Virus record (IMG/VR): IMGVR_UViG_3300035670_000144
Location: 1-64,000 of that record
From: a virus
DNA: 64,000 bases
Reading direction: 5' to 3' (one strand)
A program made the translations under genes and the position numbers. Of the stretch, positions 29,108 through 49,012 are shown piece after piece. Position 1 is the first letter of the stretch, and the number at the start of each line of letters is the position of its first letter. The notes beneath the pieces are model-generated. The model worked only from the letters and a program-made list of their open reading frames with translations. It did no database searches and was not told the DNA's origin.

Positions 29108-30040
29108 TTAGTCGTCTGCCAAAGCACGGAATGCTTTTAGATCATCATCGTCATCATCCATATCAAAATCACTTGATACTGATTGACGCTTGGAAGCAGA
29201 AGCAAAAACATCTTCAGTTGGTGCAGAACGAACAACCTTGGGTTCTGACTTCAGTTCCAAAACATTCTCTAGTTTGGCTTTTAGTTCATCATAACTCTTG
29301 AAGTTGCTTGGATCAATAAATTCCTTAAGAGTATATTGCTTGTTCCAAACTGCTTCCATCTTAGAGTCATCATTCGATAATGGTGAAGGGCCATCAAACA
29401 AAGACATATCATAGTTACGATAACCATCCACGTTACGAATACGAAGTTTGAAGTTCGCACCTTTCCAGAAATCAAATGGATTGAAAGCATTTGTTGGATT
29501 ATACTGTGGATGTTCTGGTGAACGACCCTCCTCGTCAAATGGAGGATGCATTGCCTCACTGATCTTGTCAAAAATCTTCTTGCCATAACGGAATAGAAAC
29601 ACCTTACCTTCATTTTCAGGATGCTTGGGATCAGAGATGACATAGATGTTTGAGATGTAAGTTAGACGACGTTTTTGAAGACGTGCTTGCTTACGTTGTG
29701 GAGAACCTTCATCAGAAGAAGCATTCCAAAGAACAGTATTATACTCTGAAACAGGGTCTTTCTGATTTAGTGTTGTCAGTGAGTTTTCAATATACCACTT
29801 TCCTGTTGGGCCTTTGAAACCATGAGTCCAAACACGAACCCAAGGAAGTGAATCTCCGTCTGCATCTGTGGTTGGTAGGAAACGAATTACAGCCATACCA
29901 TTTCCAGACTTATCAACATCTGGTTGCCAGAAACGATTATCACCACCCTTTTCGGATTCTGGTGAATTGATCTTGGCAATTTCCTTGGCTAGACGGTCTA
30001 GTGAACCTGATGATTTTTTGAGTGTAGCAAAGTTTGACAT
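29108..30040 (-). CDS. 32: gp32 single-stranded DNA-binding protein
   Basis: 310 aa. The N-terminal LKKSSGS is the LAST-type cooperativity motif. The core has FLPTTDADGDSLPWVRVWTHGFKGPTGKWYIENSL and FRYGKKIFDKISEAMHP...FDFWKGANFKLRI as in gp32, and the acidic tail (DMDDDDDDLKAFRALADD) is the protein-interaction C-terminus. There is no cysteine in the whole protein, so the zinc site of T4 gp32 (one His, three Cys) cannot form. Upstream are both an early and a late promoter. Confidence 0.93.
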   Translation of the reverse strand: MSNFATLKKSSGSLDRLAKEIAKINSPESEKGGDNRFWQPDVDKSGNGMAVIRFLPTTDADGDSLPWVRVWTHGFKGPTGKWYIENSLTTLNQKDPVSEYNTVLWNASSDEGSPQRKQARLQKRRLTYISNIYVISDPKHPENEGKVFLFRYGKKIFDKISEAMHPPFDEEGRSPEHPQYNPTNAFNPFDFWKGANFKLRIRNVDGYRNYDMSLFDGPSPLSNDDSKMEAVWNKQYTLKEFIDPSNFKSYDELKAKLENVLELKSEPKVVRSAPTEDVFASASKRQSVSSDFDMDDDDDDLKAFRALADD

Positions 30041-30129: not shown

Positions 30130-30413
30130 GAGTATTTATAATCCATTTCAGCAAATTCTGCTTTTTTCTCTTGGAGAGTTTTGCCAAGATGCTTTCGCTT
30201 GTTGCCACAGAGGTGACAAGAACAATTCTTTAGATGTTCTGCGTTTTTGGTAGTCCAATCATCAATAAACTCGTCATAATTTGATTGGACATAATATGAA
30301 TGTGAAAATTTGTTCCGTGCAACCTTTTCTGCTTTATTACGCATCTTCATCTTCTGATGACGACGATCTGCACGTTTCTTATTCTTTGTTGGAAAATCAT
30401 CCATGATATTCAT
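30126..30413 (-). CDS. Small basic protein with Cys motif
   Basis: 95 aa. Basic N-terminus (KNKKRADRRHQKMKMRNKAEKVARNKF) and CSCHLCGNKRKHLG around residues 64-77, a pattern seen in many small phage proteins of unknown function. A second in-frame ATG three codons in may be the real start. It overlaps the end of gene 59. Nucleic-acid binding is plausible from charge only. Confidence 0.65.
   Translation of the reverse strand: MNIMDDFPTKNKKRADRRHQKMKMRNKAEKVARNKFSHSYYVQSNYDEFIDDWTTKNAEHLKNCSCHLCGNKRKHLGKTLQEKKAEFAEMDYKYS
30133..30140 (-). promoter_or_regulatory. Late promoter box upstream of gene 32
   Basis: TATAAATA on the minus strand, just upstream of the early -35 box, inside the 3' end of the preceding small gene. 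Confidence 0.55.
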
Positions 30414-31005
30414 CCATTTTCTGTTTGAGAATTGTCTTCAGTTTAGTCTCATCATAATCTAGGAAGGGTGTAACCTTCTCACACTTGATTCTGATCTTGG
30501 ACCAAATTACATCATCTTCTCCTATAGTGCTGTTGAACTTGTCTGAGAATTTAATGAAACGGTTGAGAACGCCTAGAGTATCTATGCCGATAACTCCATT
30601 CATGTGTAACTGAATGATTTGTGGATATTGGTTTTGTTTGGTTTGAAACAAACATTTTATATTAGATACTGACATGAATGCCTTCTCTAGTTCATTCGTA
30701 AAAGTATATGAGAACGACTGCTTTCTTCTCATATACTTTATATATGTATCATGTCCTTCTTCTTCAAGATAATCTCCGACCCAAGTTTTATCTATCAGGA
30801 TGTTTGATACAAATAGGTCTACAAGTTCTTGGTCTTCATATTTCTTACTCAACTTATCAAAGAAGAATCTATCACGTCTTTTTTCAAAGGCTGTGATAGA
30901 TGCTTTTGTCTTTCCTTGATATTTAAAGAAGTCATATGTGGGTCTACTGAAATGGTTCTTGACTGATAGGTACAGTTTATAAGTATCAAATGGTGATAGT
31001 TTCAC
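30397..31005 (-). CDS. 59: gp59 replicative helicase loader
   Basis: 202 aa. DTYKLYLSVKNHFSRPTYDFFKYQGKTKASITAFEKRRDRFFFDKLSKKY matches the N-terminal half of T4 gp59, with the helical C-terminal half following. gp59 loads the gp41 helicase onto gp32-coated forks. Gene order 59-32 is the same as in T4. Confidence 0.88.
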   Translation of the reverse strand: MKLSPFDTYKLYLSVKNHFSRPTYDFFKYQGKTKASITAFEKRRDRFFFDKLSKKYEDQELVDLFVSNILIDKTWVGDYLEEEGHDTYIKYMRRKQSFSYTFTNELEKAFMSVSNIKCLFQTKQNQYPQIIQLHMNGVIGIDTLGVLNRFIKFSDKFNSTIGEDDVIWSKIRIKCEKVTPFLDYDETKLKTILKQKMDEYHG

Positions 31006-31532
31006 ACAGTATAACCTCGTTTGAGAAACTTTTGTGTTCTATAATCGGCCACCATATCTTTATTGTTGACGATTAGTTTTTTATTTTTGATCGCATGATA
31101 CATTTCTTCGGAGATGTATATCTTATGATCTATCAAAGAATATGACACGCAGCAATGTTTATAGTCAAAGTCTGCAAGCAATTCTTCTCGTGTTCTATAA
31201 TCAGTCAATATGATTTGAATTGGAATTTGATTGTAAGTCATATCAAAATTATAAACTGATCGAATGTTTGGATTATTACGATATTTTGATTGAATCTCAC
31301 ACTTATTAGGATCACCATATTGACGAAGCCAACTTTTAATATCTTGTGGTGGAGCAATTATGTAGATATCAATATCTCTCACTTCTTCACTGTTGAAACG
31401 AGATGGAAAAAATCCACCAGTCAAAACATAATGTTCTGATATCGGATGTATTACTGACATTCTCATCACATCATTGGCTGCTTTTTTCACAAACATAATT
31501 TCGTCGTAAACTTCTTTCTTTTCAAAATACAT
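31002..31532 (-). CDS. Nucleotidyltransferase-like protein
   Basis: 176 aa. LTGGFFPSRFNSEEVRDIDIYI (38-58) has the pol-beta nucleotidyltransferase pattern hGG-x12-D-h-D, with D53 and D55 as metal ligands. The C-terminal HCCVSYSLIDHKIYISEEMYHAIKNKKL resembles phage members of this superfamily. A third acidic ligand is not obvious. It overlaps gene 59 by an ATGA-type junction. Substrate unknown; nucleotide transfer to RNA, protein or small molecule are all possible. Confidence 0.6.
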   Translation of the reverse strand: MYFEKKEVYDEIMFVKKAANDVMRMSVIHPISEHYVLTGGFFPSRFNSEEVRDIDIYIIAPPQDIKSWLRQYGDPNKCEIQSKYRNNPNIRSVYNFDMTYNQIPIQIILTDYRTREELLADFDYKHCCVSYSLIDHKIYISEEMYHAIKNKKLIVNNKDMVADYRTQKFLKRGYTV

Positions 31533-31541
31533 AATATCACC

Positions 31542-31769
31542 TCAAAGGGGAAGTTTAATGGTATTTGATTTTGGTAGGTAGTTAAGTTCTTCAGCTTCTA
31601 CTTTGATCTTACTCTTGAGTAATGGAGATAGAAGTTTTGCTGCTACTTCTACCTCCATATCTCTTTCTTCACAATACATAACCACAGCATCCATATATGA
31701 AACATCTTTCATATAGACGATTTCTTCAATATCAAGAGAGAACTTCAACACTTCATCATTTTTCATCAT
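31542..31769 (-). CDS. 33: gp33 late-transcription co-activator
   Basis: 75 aa. FSLDIEEIVYMKDVSYMDAVVMYCEERDMEVEVAAKLLSPLLKSKIKVEAEELNYL matches gp33-type proteins of T4-like phages, which connect the sliding clamp and the late sigma factor gp55 to RNA polymerase. Its location near genes 59 and 32 is as in T4. The TATAAATA late boxes in the window fit a gp33/gp55 system. Confidence 0.75.
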   Translation of the reverse strand: MMKNDEVLKFSLDIEEIVYMKDVSYMDAVVMYCEERDMEVEVAAKLLSPLLKSKIKVEAEELNYLPKSNTIKLPL

Positions 31770-31780
31770 AACAAGACTCT

Positions 31781-32170
31781 TTAGTTGTAGGGTTGTAGTG
31801 AATGGTCGAAATCGTCTCTATCAACTGTGATGAATGAATGGCTGACAATGTTGAACTCATCAAGTTTCTTGAGGACGATATTTACATCAAAGTTCTTACA
31901 CGAAAACAAATCGAACTCAATAAGTGAGGGAGAAACTTCATCCCATACGTGAATAGATAGATGCGAAAAGTCTAGAATGGCAACCGCAGTGTGTCCTTTG
32001 TTACCTTCCATATCAGAATATACAACAAGTGGACCACCAATAACTTTCATACCAACTAGGTCAATAACTTCGCAACACCAATCCGAAAGAGCAATTGCTT
32101 CTCTTGGTGGATTGTTAACATAAGCACGAACTATAACGTGTTTGTGTTCACGCAGTATGGGTTTTTTCAT
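31781..32170 (-). CDS. speD: S-adenosylmethionine decarboxylase proenzyme (SpeD-like)
   Basis: 129 aa from the ATG at 32168-32170; a TTG 69 bases upstream is also in frame but would run into the tmRNA. HVIVRAYVNNPP is the first strand, and FS69HLSIH74VW with C91 matches the autocleavage Ser, processing His and catalytic Cys spacing of class 1B enzymes. The residue before the Ser is Phe instead of the usual Glu. The product would feed spermidine synthesis. Phage speD is known from cyanophages. The GGAGG site is 16 bases upstream of the ATG, which is long. Confidence 0.78.
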   Translation of the reverse strand: MKKPILREHKHVIVRAYVNNPPREAIALSDWCCEVIDLVGMKVIGGPLVVYSDMEGNKGHTAVAILDFSHLSIHVWDEVSPSLIEFDLFSCKNFDVNIVLKKLDEFNIVSHSFITVDRDDFDHSLQPYN

Positions 32171-32244
32171 GGCATTAAGTTTATCTACCTCCGAATAAAA
32201 AGAAAATGGCAGTTTTGTTTGATCGTGGATAACTGCCAACCACT

Positions 32245-32608
32245 AGTACAATACGGATGTACCCGACTGATATATTCTGTTTCGAGGTCAATCAGTAAAC
32301 CCAATGAGATTAAGCCGCTAGGCGTGTCTCAAATGGAGCATTATCGTTTGCTGCCTTTACGTTGTTTGGACTAATTTTCGGTCGTTCCTTACCGGTATCT
32401 CCACTTTCTCCAATACGTCTGTCGATCCTATTTCGCCCCCATCAAAGATACACTGTCTGCACCATGCATCAGCTCTCTCTTTAATGTTTTAGATATCATA
32501 TTACATCAAGAGTGTTTTGCCTTAAAACTAAACTAATCAGTGTATCTGTGGTGGAGGCGTTGGGTACTGCCCCCAAGTCCAGTCCGTTCTTCAATTGCTT
32601 CAACGATA
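32245..32608 (-). ncRNA. ssrA: Circularly permuted two-piece tmRNA
   Basis: On the minus strand the 3' acceptor piece comes first and ends in CGCCTCC-A-CCA (32559-32549), with a T-arm stem TTGGG/CCCAA. An intervening 108-nt segment (32441-32548) carries a 10-bp stem (32538-32547 with 32446-32455). The coding piece then begins GGGGGCG (32440-32434) and pairs fully (one G-U) with CGCCTCC to form the acceptor stem. GGATCGAC of the tmRNA D-region follows. The tag frame is GCAAAC... with stop TAA inside a TGAGA/TCTCA hairpin, and stem-loops ACTGAT/ATCAGT and GTACA/TGTAC follow. Both outer ends are approximate. Confidence 0.88.
32310..32351 (-). other. tmRNA tag reading frame ANDNAPFETRLAA
   Basis: Resume codon GCA at 32351-32349, 13 codons, stop TAA at 32312-32310. 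The ANDN start and LAA end are the pattern of alphaproteobacterial degradation tags recognised by ClpXP. Confidence 0.85.
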
Positions 32609-32614
32609 CAGTCT

Positions 32615-32622
32615 TATTTATA
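32615..32622 (-). promoter_or_regulatory. Late promoter of the tmRNA gene
   Basis: TATAAATA on the minus strand, just upstream of the acceptor piece. Transcription would start near 32608. Confidence 0.7.
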
Positions 32623-32641
32623 CCACACCCACACCAGGAAG

Positions 32642-32818
32642 TCAAGCCCTTTTTCTCTTTTTGACTCTCTTTTTATATTCAGGAAAACTCATCAGATATT
32701 GAAATTTGCTTGAAATATATTCTTCATACAACTTCTGATTATTTTTATAATGGTGAATGATAGATTTTGTTTTGGCTTTAGATACACTTTTGCTCGTAGT
32801 ATTATCATAGCCACCCAT
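32642..32818 (-). CDS. Small basic hypothetical protein
   Basis: 58 aa from the ATG at 32816-32818, which follows GGTGG and overlaps the end of the phosphatase gene. A longer frame is open upstream. The C-terminus is very basic (EYKKRVKKRKRA). No family recognised. Confidence 0.5.
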   Translation of the reverse strand: MGGYDNTTSKSVSKAKTKSIIHHYKNNQKLYEEYISSKFQYLMSFPEYKKRVKKRKRA

Positions 32819-32819
32819 A

Positions 32820-33269
32820 TCAATATCCACCATCTTTAACTTGAAGACAACGAATGCCTTCCTCTCTCCACATATCAACAACCATTCCACGATCATCTAA
32901 TGCCATATATGGATCATAGCCGTCAAGGCGAATGTTTTTTAGAATCTCACGCTTGACGATATTATCATCCCGATAATCACCTTCTTCACGCATATATACC
33001 CTATCATAAACTCCTTCAAGACCAGCCTTTTCAATCAACCACTGTTCTGTTACTCCACGATATTCATCAGATCGTGCTGTAACAATGAGAATCGTATTAC
33101 CTGCTTCCTTGAGAGTTTTTACCAACCAGATGATATCTTCATATGGAGTATCCATCAATGCTTCTGAATAATATGCAGTCCAATTTTTTGGGCGAACGTA
33201 AAGATAATGTTCCCTGTGGTCGGAATCGGCAATGGTTCCGTCCATATCAACCAGAATCACTTTTGACAT
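32820..33269 (-). CDS. HAD phosphatase related to the T4 Pnk 3'-phosphatase domain
   Basis: 149 aa. VDMDGTIAD (7-15) is HAD motif I, IVTARSDEY motif II, and MREEGDYRDDNIVKREIL with ALDDRGMVVDMWREEGIRCLQV closely parallels the C-terminal phosphatase domain of T4 polynucleotide kinase. The 5'-kinase domain is absent. It should remove 3'-phosphates from nucleic acid ends, perhaps in RNA or DNA repair. It sits between the tmRNA and an exonuclease gene. Confidence 0.82.
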   Translation of the reverse strand: MSKVILVDMDGTIADSDHREHYLYVRPKNWTAYYSEALMDTPYEDIIWLVKTLKEAGNTILIVTARSDEYRGVTEQWLIEKAGLEGVYDRVYMREEGDYRDDNIVKREILKNIRLDGYDPYMALDDRGMVVDMWREEGIRCLQVKDGGY

Positions 33270-33271
33270 GA

Positions 33272-33955
33272 TTAGCCTTTCTTTTGGTCCCTATGATAAG
33301 TTAGGATTTTATCAAAGAGAGTTTCAATGTAGTTCTCTTTACTTTCTATGAAGACTTGTGGCTTTGGTAGATCATCAGCCAGAATTATAATCACGATTTG
33401 GTCTATGACAATTTCTGTCCTTTCCTCATACATCAAAGCATATGCCGTTGCTTGTTCGAAGTAGTCCTGAATGTGTTCTTTTCTTTTCTCTTTCCTCGAT
33501 GTCTTGAAATCAATGATTGAAAGAGTTCCGTCAAATTCAGCTATCACATCAGTTCTTCCAGCAAGCAACATCTTCTCGGAGTAAAGAGATGCTTCTATGT
33601 GGTGAATATTGTCTATTCTATCAACATCTGCTCGAATGTCAAGGAAATTCTGCTTGAGGTCCAGCATAAGATTTTCTGTTAGTGTTTTCACGGGAACATT
33701 TTCAAGATATTTTTCAAGCAGGTTATGAACTTTGGTTCCACGAGAAGATGCTTTAGCAGAAATTTTATTTGCTTCTTCATGTCCGACTCTATCACGCCAT
33801 GCTTGAATTGCTTTCTTTTTGAAATGACCAAGCATGGTGGTGACAGATATTGCGTGAGTTCCGTTTGGTAGTATGTAAGTCCTTTTTCCGTCTTTTTCAA
33901 ATTTGTCTAGTGTCACAAGTTCAGGGAGTCCTGATACATAACGAAATTGTTTCAT
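33272..33955 (-). CDS. PD-(D/E)xK exonuclease, MGME1-like
   Basis: 227 aa. SSRGTKVHNLLEKYL, then IEASLYSEKMLLAGRTDVIAEFDGTLSIIDFKTSRKEK (about 122-158) gives the D and DFK catalytic residues, and DYFEQATAYALMY follows. This is the layout of MGME1/PDDEXK_1 nucleases that trim single-stranded ends, common in T4-like environmental phages. Likely in DNA repair or replication. Its start overlaps the stop of the next upstream gene. Confidence 0.82.
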   Translation of the reverse strand: MKQFRYVSGLPELVTLDKFEKDGKRTYILPNGTHAISVTTMLGHFKKKAIQAWRDRVGHEEANKISAKASSRGTKVHNLLEKYLENVPVKTLTENLMLDLKQNFLDIRADVDRIDNIHHIEASLYSEKMLLAGRTDVIAEFDGTLSIIDFKTSRKEKRKEHIQDYFEQATAYALMYEERTEIVIDQIVIIILADDLPKPQVFIESKENYIETLFDKILTYHRDQKKG

Positions 33956-34572: not shown

Positions 34573-35652
34573 TCAGGGATTTGTTTTTTGTTGTATGTTA
34601 GCAGCTACTCTTTTAAACCAAGAAGGTGAATCGCCATAGTTTGTGTATGTTGGTTTTCCTTCTCGTCGTCTTGCTCCCGCTCTTTTAGCCCATTCTTCAT
34701 CTTCTCTGCCCATATGATCCGCAAGTCTGGCAGCCTTATATGCTTTTTGCTCACGTTCGCCAAATCCATGATCAACAATAACAAGATGTTCTTCGCCAGT
34801 ATCTGGGTCCGTCGAAACTCCCCAATTTCCAGGTTGCGAATAATCCATTGGAGGTGTGCCAGTTTCAATCTGGTGCTGAAGAAGATTTTTGAAAAGTGGA
34901 TGTGAAGTTATAGCATCCAGCTTTGCTTCATTTGCAGGACCAGTGTCGTGATATGCCCCTCTACTCTTATGCCATTCTCTTTCTAGAGCACGAATCAAAT
35001 GATGAAAAACTATTCCGTCTGGATGACTATCTGTTCTAGATATTTTAGTAAATTCTCTACCAGATTTTATTCTACGAGCATAACCAGCTTCTGTCCATCT
35101 ATGCTCCTTAACATCATGAGCATGTAGTTCTGGGAATATCCCATTTTTATTTCTTGTATATGTCCCATCGGGATTTCTAATATAGATACGCCATTTGTTA
35201 TTTTTTTCATCTCCCGTTACAGGGTCTTTCATTCCGTTTTCGGCTTCATTTTGCATAACACCTAAAGGCGTTTTATTACCTAGGCTCTTATGTGCTTCAT
35301 CAAGAGGTGCAGGTTGTGCAACTTTAAAAACGGTAGGGACTTCAGTTTCTTTTCCATCAAGAATTATGGTGTTGGTTTTATCTGGTTCTGTAATATTTTT
35401 AGTTCTATCTAAAGGTGCATCTGGAGAAGGTCTAGTGACCATTTGTGGCAACAATGCCAATCTTGATGACCCTGATGCAACTTCTCCGAAACCAGGGTTT
35501 TCACCAAGACGCCTTGCAGCATCTCCCATAGCAGTAATCATCGGACCACTAAGTTTGTCATGATTATCCGCCTTTGTAATGGCATGTAGAATATCTGGAT
35601 GAATTTTATGTTCTACTGCAAGTTCTTCTCTTATCTGCTTGAGAGTTTTCAT
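34573..35652 (-). CDS. Kinase-fold protein with capsid-targeting-like leader
   Basis: 359 aa. Leader MKTLKQIREE. The body has features of a small-kinase or aminoglycoside-phosphotransferase fold: GFGEVASGSSRLALL (54-68, loop), TVFK110VA (ATP Lys), QNEAE138 (helix C Glu), D270-YSQPG-N276-WGV (catalytic loop) and VIVD294HGFG (metal Asp). The stop and the phoH stop region are coupled through a short overlap at the start. Together these suggest a phosphotransferase carried in the virion and delivered with DNA. This is a motif-based inference. Confidence 0.6.
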   Translation of the reverse strand: MKTLKQIREELAVEHKIHPDILHAITKADNHDKLSGPMITAMGDAARRLGENPGFGEVASGSSRLALLPQMVTRPSPDAPLDRTKNITEPDKTNTIILDGKETEVPTVFKVAQPAPLDEAHKSLGNKTPLGVMQNEAENGMKDPVTGDEKNNKWRIYIRNPDGTYTRNKNGIFPELHAHDVKEHRWTEAGYARRIKSGREFTKISRTDSHPDGIVFHHLIRALEREWHKSRGAYHDTGPANEAKLDAITSHPLFKNLLQHQIETGTPPMDYSQPGNWGVSTDPDTGEEHLVIVDHGFGEREQKAYKAARLADHMGREDEEWAKRAGARRREGKPTYTNYGDSPSWFKRVAANIQQKTNP

Positions 35653-36362
35653 ATCCCCATCTCTGTTCTGGTGACTATATAATCTTTCACAAGCCCAGAC
35701 CTAACAATATCTGGCTTGTCAAATTCAATATAATCAAATCTGTTCATTTGTTTAGTTATATTTATAAACTTCATGAGTCCAGATTTATCTTTATCGTTAG
35801 ACAAGTCGGTTTGTCTAAAGTCACCACAGAAAACAATCTTGGAATCGTCACCCATACGAGTCATGACAGTATCGAGTTCACCGAATGTCATATTCTGGAG
35901 TTCATCAACAATCACGATTGCGTTTTTGAATGTCACTCCGCGAAGATATGATGTTGTCGTGAATTGAACTAGCCCTTTCATTTTTAGAATATCATATCCA
36001 TCACCACGACCAAACAAATCATCACAGATTTCTTTGTATGGTTCTTCATATACCTTGATCTTCTCTTTGATATTGCCGGGAAGGAAACCCATATCTCTTG
36101 ATGGCACTACCGAACGAATGATAACAACCTTATCACATACAGAACGGCCTTTCAATACTTCTTCTAATGCTAGATAAAGAGAGATGAAAGATTTACCTGT
36201 TCCAGCGAATCCATGAAGTATCAAATTCTGCCCGTCACGATATGAATCAAATGTCTTTTGCTGGTTTGGTGTTAGTGGATAGATTGTTCTAAGTTCAAAG
36301 TGTGTTTTTGCTTGTTGAACTTTGCTTTGTAGTTGTTCTCTCTTTACTTTTCTTTTTGACAT
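35649..36362 (-). CDS. phoH: PhoH-like ATPase
   Basis: 237 aa from the ATG at 36360-36362, which has a strong AAAGGAG; an in-frame TTG further upstream would read through a stable hairpin and is less likely. GFAGTGKS is Walker A, IVIVDELQN Walker B, and FCGDFRQTDL follows. PhoH proteins are ATPases related to RNA helicases and are common in marine phages. Role in the phage is unclear. Confidence 0.88.
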   Translation of the reverse strand: MSKRKVKREQLQSKVQQAKTHFELRTIYPLTPNQQKTFDSYRDGQNLILHGFAGTGKSFISLYLALEEVLKGRSVCDKVVIIRSVVPSRDMGFLPGNIKEKIKVYEEPYKEICDDLFGRGDGYDILKMKGLVQFTTTSYLRGVTFKNAIVIVDELQNMTFGELDTVMTRMGDDSKIVFCGDFRQTDLSNDKDKSGLMKFINITKQMNRFDYIEFDKPDIVRSGLVKDYIVTRTEMGI

Positions 36363-36381
36363 AGTGTCTCCTTTATGTACG

Positions 36382-36413
36382 ACAAAGGGCCTACCTTTCG
36401 GCAAGCCCTTTGT
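36382..36413 (-). promoter_or_regulatory. Strong hairpin in phoH leader
   Basis: 14-bp stem closed by a GAAA tetraloop on the minus strand (ACAAAGGGC outer stem, two G-U pairs near the loop). It lies between the HNH gene and the phoH ribosome site. No U-run follows on the minus strand, so a leader structure or RNA processing site is more likely than a terminator for this strand. Confidence 0.7.
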
Positions 36414-36449
36414 TTTAACTTTGGATTGATAGTTAAATTTGTTACTCAA

Positions 36450-40537: not shown

Positions 40538-40611
40538 TGGCGAAGGTGGTAGGAATTGAACCCACATTTTCGGGTTTGGAAGCCGACGTGTTACCGTTAC
40601 ACTACACCGAC
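40538..40611 (-). tRNA. tRNA-Trp (CCA) candidate with imperfect acceptor stem
   Basis: 74 nt on the minus strand. D-arm GTGT/ACAC with AACGGTA loop, T-arm GTGGG/CCTAC with TTCAATT loop, and an encoded G73-CCA end. In a 7-nt loop TTCCAAA the anticodon is CCA (Trp), and G73 agrees with Trp. A shifted reading would give TCC (Gly). Acceptor pairs 2-71 and 3-70 are mismatched and so is 31-39, so function is uncertain. Confidence 0.65.
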
Positions 40612-48232: not shown

Positions 48233-49012
48233 TTAGTTAATACCGTCTCGTTCGTCAATCTTTCTAATAGTCCAGAAATCATCTGATAAATCAGTAGTTG
48301 TCATATAATCGTAAGGAAGATAATAGTATCCTTGATCTCCACATTCTGTTCCCCATGAATTATGAATTTCAAATAGTTTAGTTTCATCATCATATCCAGA
48401 ACAAACAACAGCATGTCCGCCATCCATTTTATCATTGGTTCTAGGCATAGGAATTATACCTTTATTTGATTCAGCTTCATCCATTGAAAGGAATACTGAG
48501 AATCCAAATACAAATGGAAATCCTGATGCAAGGCAGGTTTTCAACTCATCTATTCGTGAGTTATCTAATCTGTAATATTCAATAGCCTTATATTTCTTGG
48601 CATTTGAATATGCTTTTTGTGTTGGCCTTTTCTTGAATTTTTTCTCAATGTAAGGCCAATATTTCTCATCACAGAAGCCATCTCTATTGATAGTTTTGAT
48701 GCCGGTTCTAATCTCTGCACCAGCATCTTCGTTGATGGTTTTTTCATACATTCTTTCATTGTAATAGATGAAAAGCCTTGAAGGTCTAAACTCAGGCTTT
48801 TCTTGAGTGAACATTCTGTTATACATGAGTGCAGTTGAAATCGCATGGCCGGTACAAGAACCAATATCACCCTGATCTACAATTGGAGGCATTTTATTTC
48901 TTAGTGATACTTTGGGTGGTAGAAAGTCCGTTAGAGTAAGAGGACGAATTGAACCATATTTCTTGTCTCTAAAATCTGGTTTATCTGGTTTCCAGCCATA
49001 CGATCTTTTCAT
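48233..49012 (-). CDS. Papain-like (C1 family) cysteine protease
   Basis: 259 aa. Q47-GDIGSC53 gives oxyanion Gln and nucleophile Cys, GGH200AV the His and HN218SWG the Asn, all in papain order. No signal peptide or pro-domain is visible. It is last in an overlapping operon (50.6-48.2 kb) with proteins that carry capsid-targeting-like leaders, so a role in virion protein processing or host attack is possible. Such proteases are seen in some large phages. Confidence 0.85.
   Translation of the reverse strand: MKRSYGWKPDKPDFRDKKYGSIRPLTLTDFLPPKVSLRNKMPPIVDQGDIGSCTGHAISTALMYNRMFTQEKPEFRPSRLFIYYNERMYEKTINEDAGAEIRTGIKTINRDGFCDEKYWPYIEKKFKKRPTQKAYSNAKKYKAIEYYRLDNSRIDELKTCLASGFPFVFGFSVFLSMDEAESNKGIIPMPRTNDKMDGGHAVVCSGYDDETKLFEIHNSWGTECGDQGYYYLPYDYMTTTDLSDDFWTIRKIDERDGIN

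Follow-up and report, generated by a model that had tools for sequence, protein, structure and literature searches.

Bacteria use tmRNA (ssrA) to release stalled ribosomes and to label incomplete proteins for degradation. Tagging RNAs of this type are encoded by phages as well as by bacteria, and a gap between two genes of a viral contig raises the question of whether such a gene lies there, whether it belongs to the phage and what the phage would gain from it. An ARAGORN count gave 53 two-piece tmRNAs in 18,146 phage genomes, one carrier being the isolated T4-like phage Melnitz (MZ577097), and the functions proposed are ribosome maintenance or host-protein degradation (PMC9004378). Phage sequences number 79 in the tmRNA database paper (PMC11915505), and the available text of PMC4131195 reports phage ssrA genes together with an inhibitory DS6A-type fragment; the ssrA genes of mycobacteriophages and Bacillus phage G, phage-encoded like the one studied here, are not described as permuted in that text. 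We analysed the first 64,000 nucleotides (the window) of the 74,525-base record IMGVR_UViG_3300035670_000144, for which an initial annotation had proposed a phage-encoded, circularly permuted two-piece tmRNA at 32245-32622; the remaining 10.5 kb of the record was covered by searches.

Identity and layout of the locus

Rfam covariance models matched the minus strand at 32622-32208, over the full length of tmRNA_permuted RF04321 (104.7 bits, E = 2.4e-19, cut-off 47) and, at the same locus, with alpha_tmRNA RF01849 (91.1 bits, E = 2e-23, cut-off 50). Both scores stand well above their cut-offs and are thus far beyond chance, and the alpha_tmRNA site is the single one in the entire record. The absence of an alpha_tmRNA match had been named in the initial annotation as grounds for refuting it. 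Together with T4-like surroundings and covarying helices, these matches bear out the initial proposal and support the identification of this strand as a phage-encoded, alpha-type, circularly permuted two-piece tmRNA gene, whose parts are as follows.

32615..32645, minus strand: putative composite promoter, with TTGACT, a 17-nt spacer and a TATAAATA box at 32622-32615 (read from the sequence)
32549..32609, minus strand: acceptor piece, with GUAUC 5' helix strand, GGAC, T-arm, CGCCUCC acceptor 3' strand and encoded CCA (RF04321 alignment)
32441..32548, minus strand: intervening segment of 108 nt, predicted to be excised, with a closing stem of 32547-32538 with 32455-32446 (covariation)
32266..32440, minus strand: coding piece, with GGGGGCG acceptor 5' strand, GGATCGAC D-region, putative PK1, tag frame, tag hairpin and 3' pseudoknot (RF04321/RF01849)
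32310..32351, minus strand: tag ANDNAPFETRLAA and UAA, with the resume codon GCA at 32351 (translation)
32208..32265, minus strand: 3' extension, a GUACA/UGUAC hairpin followed by a second pseudoknot-like unit (GUGG/CCAC with GGCAGUU/AACUGCC)

The acceptor (3' TLD) piece is encoded upstream of the coding piece and ends in the encoded CCA at 32549. UUGAU separates the intervening closing stem from the coding piece, whose first bases, GGGGGCG from 32440, form a 7-bp acceptor helix, G3:U70 included, with CGCCTCC of the acceptor piece; the 3' pseudoknot ends at 32266. The elements picked out in the initial annotation (CCA, the 108-nt excisable segment, its 10-bp stem, the 7-bp pairing, the GGATCGAC D-region, the tag frame and a hairpin around the stop) are all present on the minus strand, and the annotation was right nearly base for base, although the gene reaches beyond its span on both sides, to a −35 element at ~32645-32640 and to an extra pseudoknot and probable terminator extending to ~32197.

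ARAGORN, the second search that the initial annotation had suggested besides the alpha_tmRNA model, reported no tmRNA at the locus, and it likewise overlooked roughly half of the close relatives in which every landmark is present. Loci with the landmarks and no ARAGORN tmRNA include L001, L122, L123, L134, L135, L137, L139, L143, L144, L148 and L197, so that ARAGORN-based surveys undercount phage two-piece tmRNAs. A search for the two halves at a fixed gap of 60-90 nt also gave no match, the intervening segment, at 108 nt, being longer than that range.

Beyond the 3' pseudoknot, the 3' extension and a T-rich tract that follows its second pseudoknot-like unit continue to ~32197; the tract is probably a terminator. 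The extension occurs only in some relatives, and among eight aligned copies compensatory changes are seen in L144 and L148b; its core is almost unchanged among phages, partly since the core itself was the search query. Copies lie at window 32265-32208, in L126, L141, L144, L197, L198, L199 and L200, and at L148 5206-5227, L148 having this second copy behind a protein gene besides its own tmRNA. Folding of the extension by itself as a single strand gave no significant result (z = −0.89), an outcome that pseudoknots, if involved, would lead one to expect. A downstream block, GGGTACATCCGTATTGTACTAG..., common to several phages, was considered as a known RNA and found no Rfam support, and at permissive E-values Rfam gave no other credible RNA around the tmRNA gene.

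Conserved structure

Pairing in the structure proposed here was counted across 16 distinct members, comprising the window and 15 viral contigs with the tag or a close form of it. In this alignment 93.3% of cells are paired, double-sided changes occur at 32 of 52 pairs, and the covariation score is 0.460, compared with 0.156 ± 0.013 for shuffled controls and at most 0.108 for slid ones. Helices 1-3, in the acceptor piece, covary, and so does each of the two helices of the 3' pseudoknot; helices 5-10 lie in the coding piece. The tag hairpin covaries too, GAG occurring with TCTC and GAA with TTTC after the stop. PK1 is the least certain part of the model: its helices are paired in 79.6% and 68.9% of cells, figures partly limited by the alignment, and double changes are seen.

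The acceptor helix exists in seven different versions, each complementary at 7/7 positions; it varies freely at four pairs, while G3:U70 is invariant. This pair was present in 149/149 viral and 97/97 bacterial rows, which had been found by demanding seven complementary bases, with U70 itself no criterion. G3:U70 is the alanine identity pair recognized by AlaRS. The closing stem of the intervening segment is 97.5% paired in the 16 relatives, with both-sided changes at all ten pairs, and is fully paired in 14/14 family members; across 87 distinct viral segments 8.53 of 9 pairs are kept, versus 5.96 ± 0.12 when arms are exchanged between sequences.

Phage context

The genes around the tmRNA include the following.

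29108-30040: gp32, a T4-like neighbour gene
30397..31005, minus strand: gp59-like helicase loader (PF08993, E = 6.5e-18)
31002-31532: nucleotidyltransferase-like gene, close to the tmRNA
31542..31769, minus strand: gp33-like late-transcription coactivator (phrog_254, E = 3e-20; 43% identity to Melnitz gp33)
31781..32170, minus strand: S-adenosylmethionine decarboxylase (speD-like), the downstream gene (PF02675, E = 9.5e-9; phrog_3125)
32820..33269, minus strand: polynucleotide kinase 3'-phosphatase domain protein (PNKP-phosphatase), the upstream gene (PF25109, E = 4e-32)
33272..33955, minus strand: PDDEXK exonuclease (phrog_298, E = 1.5e-64; PF12705)
35649-36449: PhoH, a T4-like neighbour gene

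Baseplate and tail genes are also among the T4-like phage genes of the window. The baseplate wedge protein is 40% identical to that of Melnitz, the baseplate being nearest to Melnitz and pelagimyophages, and the B12-dependent ribonucleotide reductase is nearest to that of the SAR116 phage HMO-2011 (63%). The source is likely a T4-like phage of marine type that infects an alphaproteobacterium. A link between the tmRNA and RNA repair is conceivable from the 3'-phosphatase and nucleotidyltransferase-like genes nearby; as a query for relatives, the PNKP-phosphatase gene returned four distant loci only. Elsewhere, the window encodes a papain-family cysteine protease (48233-49012; PF00112, E = 4.6e-12) and a tRNA-Trp (40538-40611), and three more tRNA matches lie outside it at record positions 66936-67014, 69847-69931 and 71469-71539.

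The gene order PhoH, PDDEXK, ssrA, (speD), gp33, gp59 places the tmRNA in the slot that holds the published Melnitz two-piece tmRNA, so it is not the first of its kind and adds to the phage two-piece tmRNAs already described. Melnitz ssrA shares the permuted two-piece form, the T4-like (Kyanoviridae) phage background, the intervening stem, G3:U70, the slot between PhoH/PDDEXK and gp33/gp59 and a promoter of the same layout, TTGACA-17-TATAAATA; it differs in its tag (ANDNYVPVDYALAA), in an intervening segment of 142 nt and in having no adjoining speD. Melnitz has also been described with a glutamine riboswitch, a trait that does not define phage tmRNAs at large; with Rfam, no riboswitch was found anywhere in the window at the gathering threshold, nor near the tmRNA gene at E < 5.

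RF04321 matches six phage records retrieved for comparison. HTVC008M, DSS3_MAL1, RcXuper, RcSimone-Hastad and Cp1R7A-A1 resemble the window in having a permuted tmRNA above the RF04321 cut-off, but they have other tags and lack the TATAAATA box in the upstream slot; the records of the last four, all isolates, do not place them among the T4-like Kyanoviridae, and HTVC008M has an intervening segment of 49 nt as opposed to 108 nt here. The tmRNAs of mycobacteriophages and Bacillus phage G are one-piece, and hence of another gene form and lineage.

SmpB was found neither in the record itself, a 74.5-kb fragment, nor in 15 further phage records with a tmRNA, of which six are named isolates, while bacterial controls were positive; given that the record is a fragment, smpB may lie elsewhere in the phage genome.

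A putative composite promoter

Upstream of the acceptor piece, TTGACT-17-TATAAATA reads both as a putative sigma70 promoter and as a putative T4-type late promoter, and the start predicted from it falls approximately at the 5' helix of the tmRNA. TATAAATA is the late promoter of T4 and KVP40 and agrees with the T4/cyanophage late-promoter consensus; in cyanomyoviruses, middle-mode transcription has been proposed to arise where early and late promoters overlap (PMC2984593), and by analogy such transcription is plausible for the tmRNA of the window. The box occupies the same 24-nt slot upstream of the acceptor piece at 80/119 viral and 0/95 bacterial loci (67/102 and 0/86 without near-identical upstream regions), whereas shuffling leads one to expect it anywhere upstream at about 3 of the 119 viral loci. 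In the same comparison, TTGAC-16/18-TATA was found at 62 viral and 0 bacterial loci. Within the window TATAAATA occurs 14 times versus 6.9 expected, some copies lying directly upstream of structural genes. As regards T4-type late promotion, the motif stands at a conserved position and a gp33 is encoded; gp55 was not identified among the scanned genes. The promoter motif supports a predicted late expression of the tmRNA.

The tag peptide

The tag frame has a GCA resume codon, a degron-like LAA end and a stop; with this ending proteolysis of tagged proteins is expected, not stabilization. ANDNAPFETRLAA is common to at least 14 distinct viral tmRNAs, with codons that differ synonymously. A scan of 84,980 species genomes of bacteria and archaea, in which a GCA resume codon and exact codons were required, gave no match to ANDNAPFE and 25 matches to ANDNAPF, none of them a tmRNA tag. 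Distinct tags number 75 in the viral and 66 in the bacterial set, with none shared; the median length is 13 residues in viral versus 11.5 in bacterial tags, and a ...RLAA ending is commoner in the former (30/108 versus 3/86). Unusually long viral tags, of 29 residues in L064, L076, L099 and L115 (ANDNALSNVTFVDFSAPVTAVNEDFALAA) and 31 in L086 (ANDNVAQPKFMKKRNTFARKVGFTKGMALAA), were also observed.

Viral and bacterial permuted tmRNAs

The viral set consisted of family members, isolates and IMG/VR contigs, most of the contigs having been retrieved through an exact match to the 20-mer GGGGGCGAAATAGGATCGAC; the bacterial set comprised 95-97 tmRNAs, nearly all drawn from across one class sample (263/289 genomes exceeding the RF04321 cut-off) that may represent SAR11 and SAR116 well or poorly. 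Alphaproteobacterial alpha_tmRNA/tmRNA_permuted genes share with the window the two-piece permuted form, the TLD, a putative PK1, the tag layout and alanine identity. The window differs in its 108-nt segment (bacterial median 28 nt), its late-type box, the lack of the bacterial 5' hairpin, a tag not seen in bacteria and its position on a separate branch. Across the sets, the intervening segment has a median length of 93 nt in viral versus 28 nt in bacterial genes (P = 2e-18). An IQ-TREE analysis of 117 rows parts the bacterial from the viral rows by a single branch with support of 100/99, obtained from a short alignment (241 columns) and a bootstrap that had not settled; FastTree recovers the same split over 216 rows with a support of only 64. 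Isolates not picked by the 20-mer fall on the viral side. Any bacterial sequence within the IMG/VR contigs may weaken these contrasts, and would not create them. What appears to be new here, judged from the sequences compared, is a consistent set of viral-bacterial differences in promoter box, intervening length, tags and tree position.

In one Hyphomicrobiales MAG (G011), two weaker permuted tmRNA matches spanning 306 nt (L204 and L205) stand beside a normal one; these extra copies are possibly prophage-borne.

Some viral loci have a mosaic appearance. L122 and L123 (IMGVR 3300043420_002128 and 3300007541_001482) have near-identical flanks and coding pieces but unrelated T-arm, acceptor and intervening segments, which is the apparent mark of a tRNA-like half swapped as a module with complementarity kept. 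In L146 (1670-1922), the ANDNAPFETRLAA tag and a related 3' pseudoknot are joined to a tmRNA body from another part of the tree, which suggests that the tag segment was transferred. Along with the pattern in L148, these cases suggest that parts of tmRNAs may recombine among phages.

Proposed function and alternatives

We consider it probable that the locus encodes an active alpha-type two-piece tmRNA of a T4-like phage which, with host SmpB, would keep ribosomes cycling during infection. From the observed identity of the RNA, its conserved structure and tag, the phage context and the promoter motif, we infer expression, processing, charging, SmpB binding, tagging and a benefit to the phage along the following lines. 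One precursor would start at the composite sigma70/T4-late promoter, the 5' helix, the 7-bp acceptor helix and the 10-bp intervening stem holding its pieces and ends together while host RNase P and 3' processing enzymes cut out the 108-nt segment to leave a CCA-ended acceptor piece and a coding piece. AlaRS would charge this two-piece RNA through G3:U70, and host SmpB would bring it to ribosomes that have stalled on mRNA broken or lacking a stop codon, where the nascent chain would gain A-ANDNAPFETRLAA, its ...LAA serving as a C-terminal degron for ClpXP-type proteases, and the ribosome would be freed. The phage may benefit from ribosome recycling and the disposal of truncated proteins once transcription of the host has been turned off and mRNA undergoes cleavage.

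Such ongoing ribosome rescue is the most likely benefit. Its main rival, unlikely in our judgement, is that the phage tmRNA mainly redirects proteolysis, through a tag tuned to a protease or adaptor other than that of the host ssrA tag, so that tagged fragments of host (or phage) proteins would meet a different fate or their amino acids would be recycled. Tuning of this kind would fit the retention of ANDNAPFETRLAA across diverged tmRNA bodies, even on the different body of L146, and the greater length and commoner ...RLAA endings of viral tags; it would also fit the lack of any tmRNA with ANDNAPFE or ANDNAPF among the 84,980 species genomes and of any overlap between viral and bacterial tags, although that scan required GCA and exact codons, the true host is perhaps unsampled, and tag differences may stem from RNA lineage alone. 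The standard ...LAA ending, moreover, is kept, so that the same ClpXP/ClpAP route is expected.

The evidence also bears on readings in which the gene would do something else or nothing. Acquisition of host ssrA fragments by phages is known and is discussed in PMC9004378, and the locus could be a captured host gene, carried as a passenger or decaying relic without benefit; a relic would have broken helices and tag frames, however, and the strong covariation, with the alanine pair invariant and the tag frame and promoter conserved over many lineages, contradicts this reading, as the grouping of viral apart from bacterial tmRNAs (100/99) is not the pattern of recent captures. We regard it as very improbable, and just as improbable a decoy role, in which the RNA would sequester SmpB or obstruct host trans-translation in the way put forward for the DS6A mycobacteriophage fragment, which has no tag. 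No phage SmpB was found, and a DS6A-like fragment inhibits tmRNA according to the available text of PMC4131195, but the tag frame, stop hairpin and pseudoknots are under selection and would be needless in a decoy, which we reject on covariation and repeated occurrence. That a host ssrA entered the contig through misassembly or contamination with bacterial sequence is the least credible explanation of all: the record is metagenome-derived and 74.5 kb long, yet the same kind of tmRNA adjoins the same speD in the independent contigs L122, L123, L126, L141, L144 and L197, and Melnitz, an isolate, has its tmRNA in the same slot.

Beyond ribosome rescue in a single phage, we offer tentatively, as a possibility held with less than even confidence, that phage permuted tmRNAs did not arise by repeated capture from hosts but form an old lineage belonging to phages, with tags of their own and a built-in T4-late/sigma70 promoter, and that their evolution may have enabled them to take ribosome rescue and protein tagging over from the host and to retune both late in infection. 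The conserved late-type promoter, tags not seen in the bacterial sample and the missing SmpB would make hitherto vague proposals on phage tmRNA testable, as questions of when the RNA is synthesized, whether it takes the place of the host's own tmRNA, and whether its tag is treated in another way.
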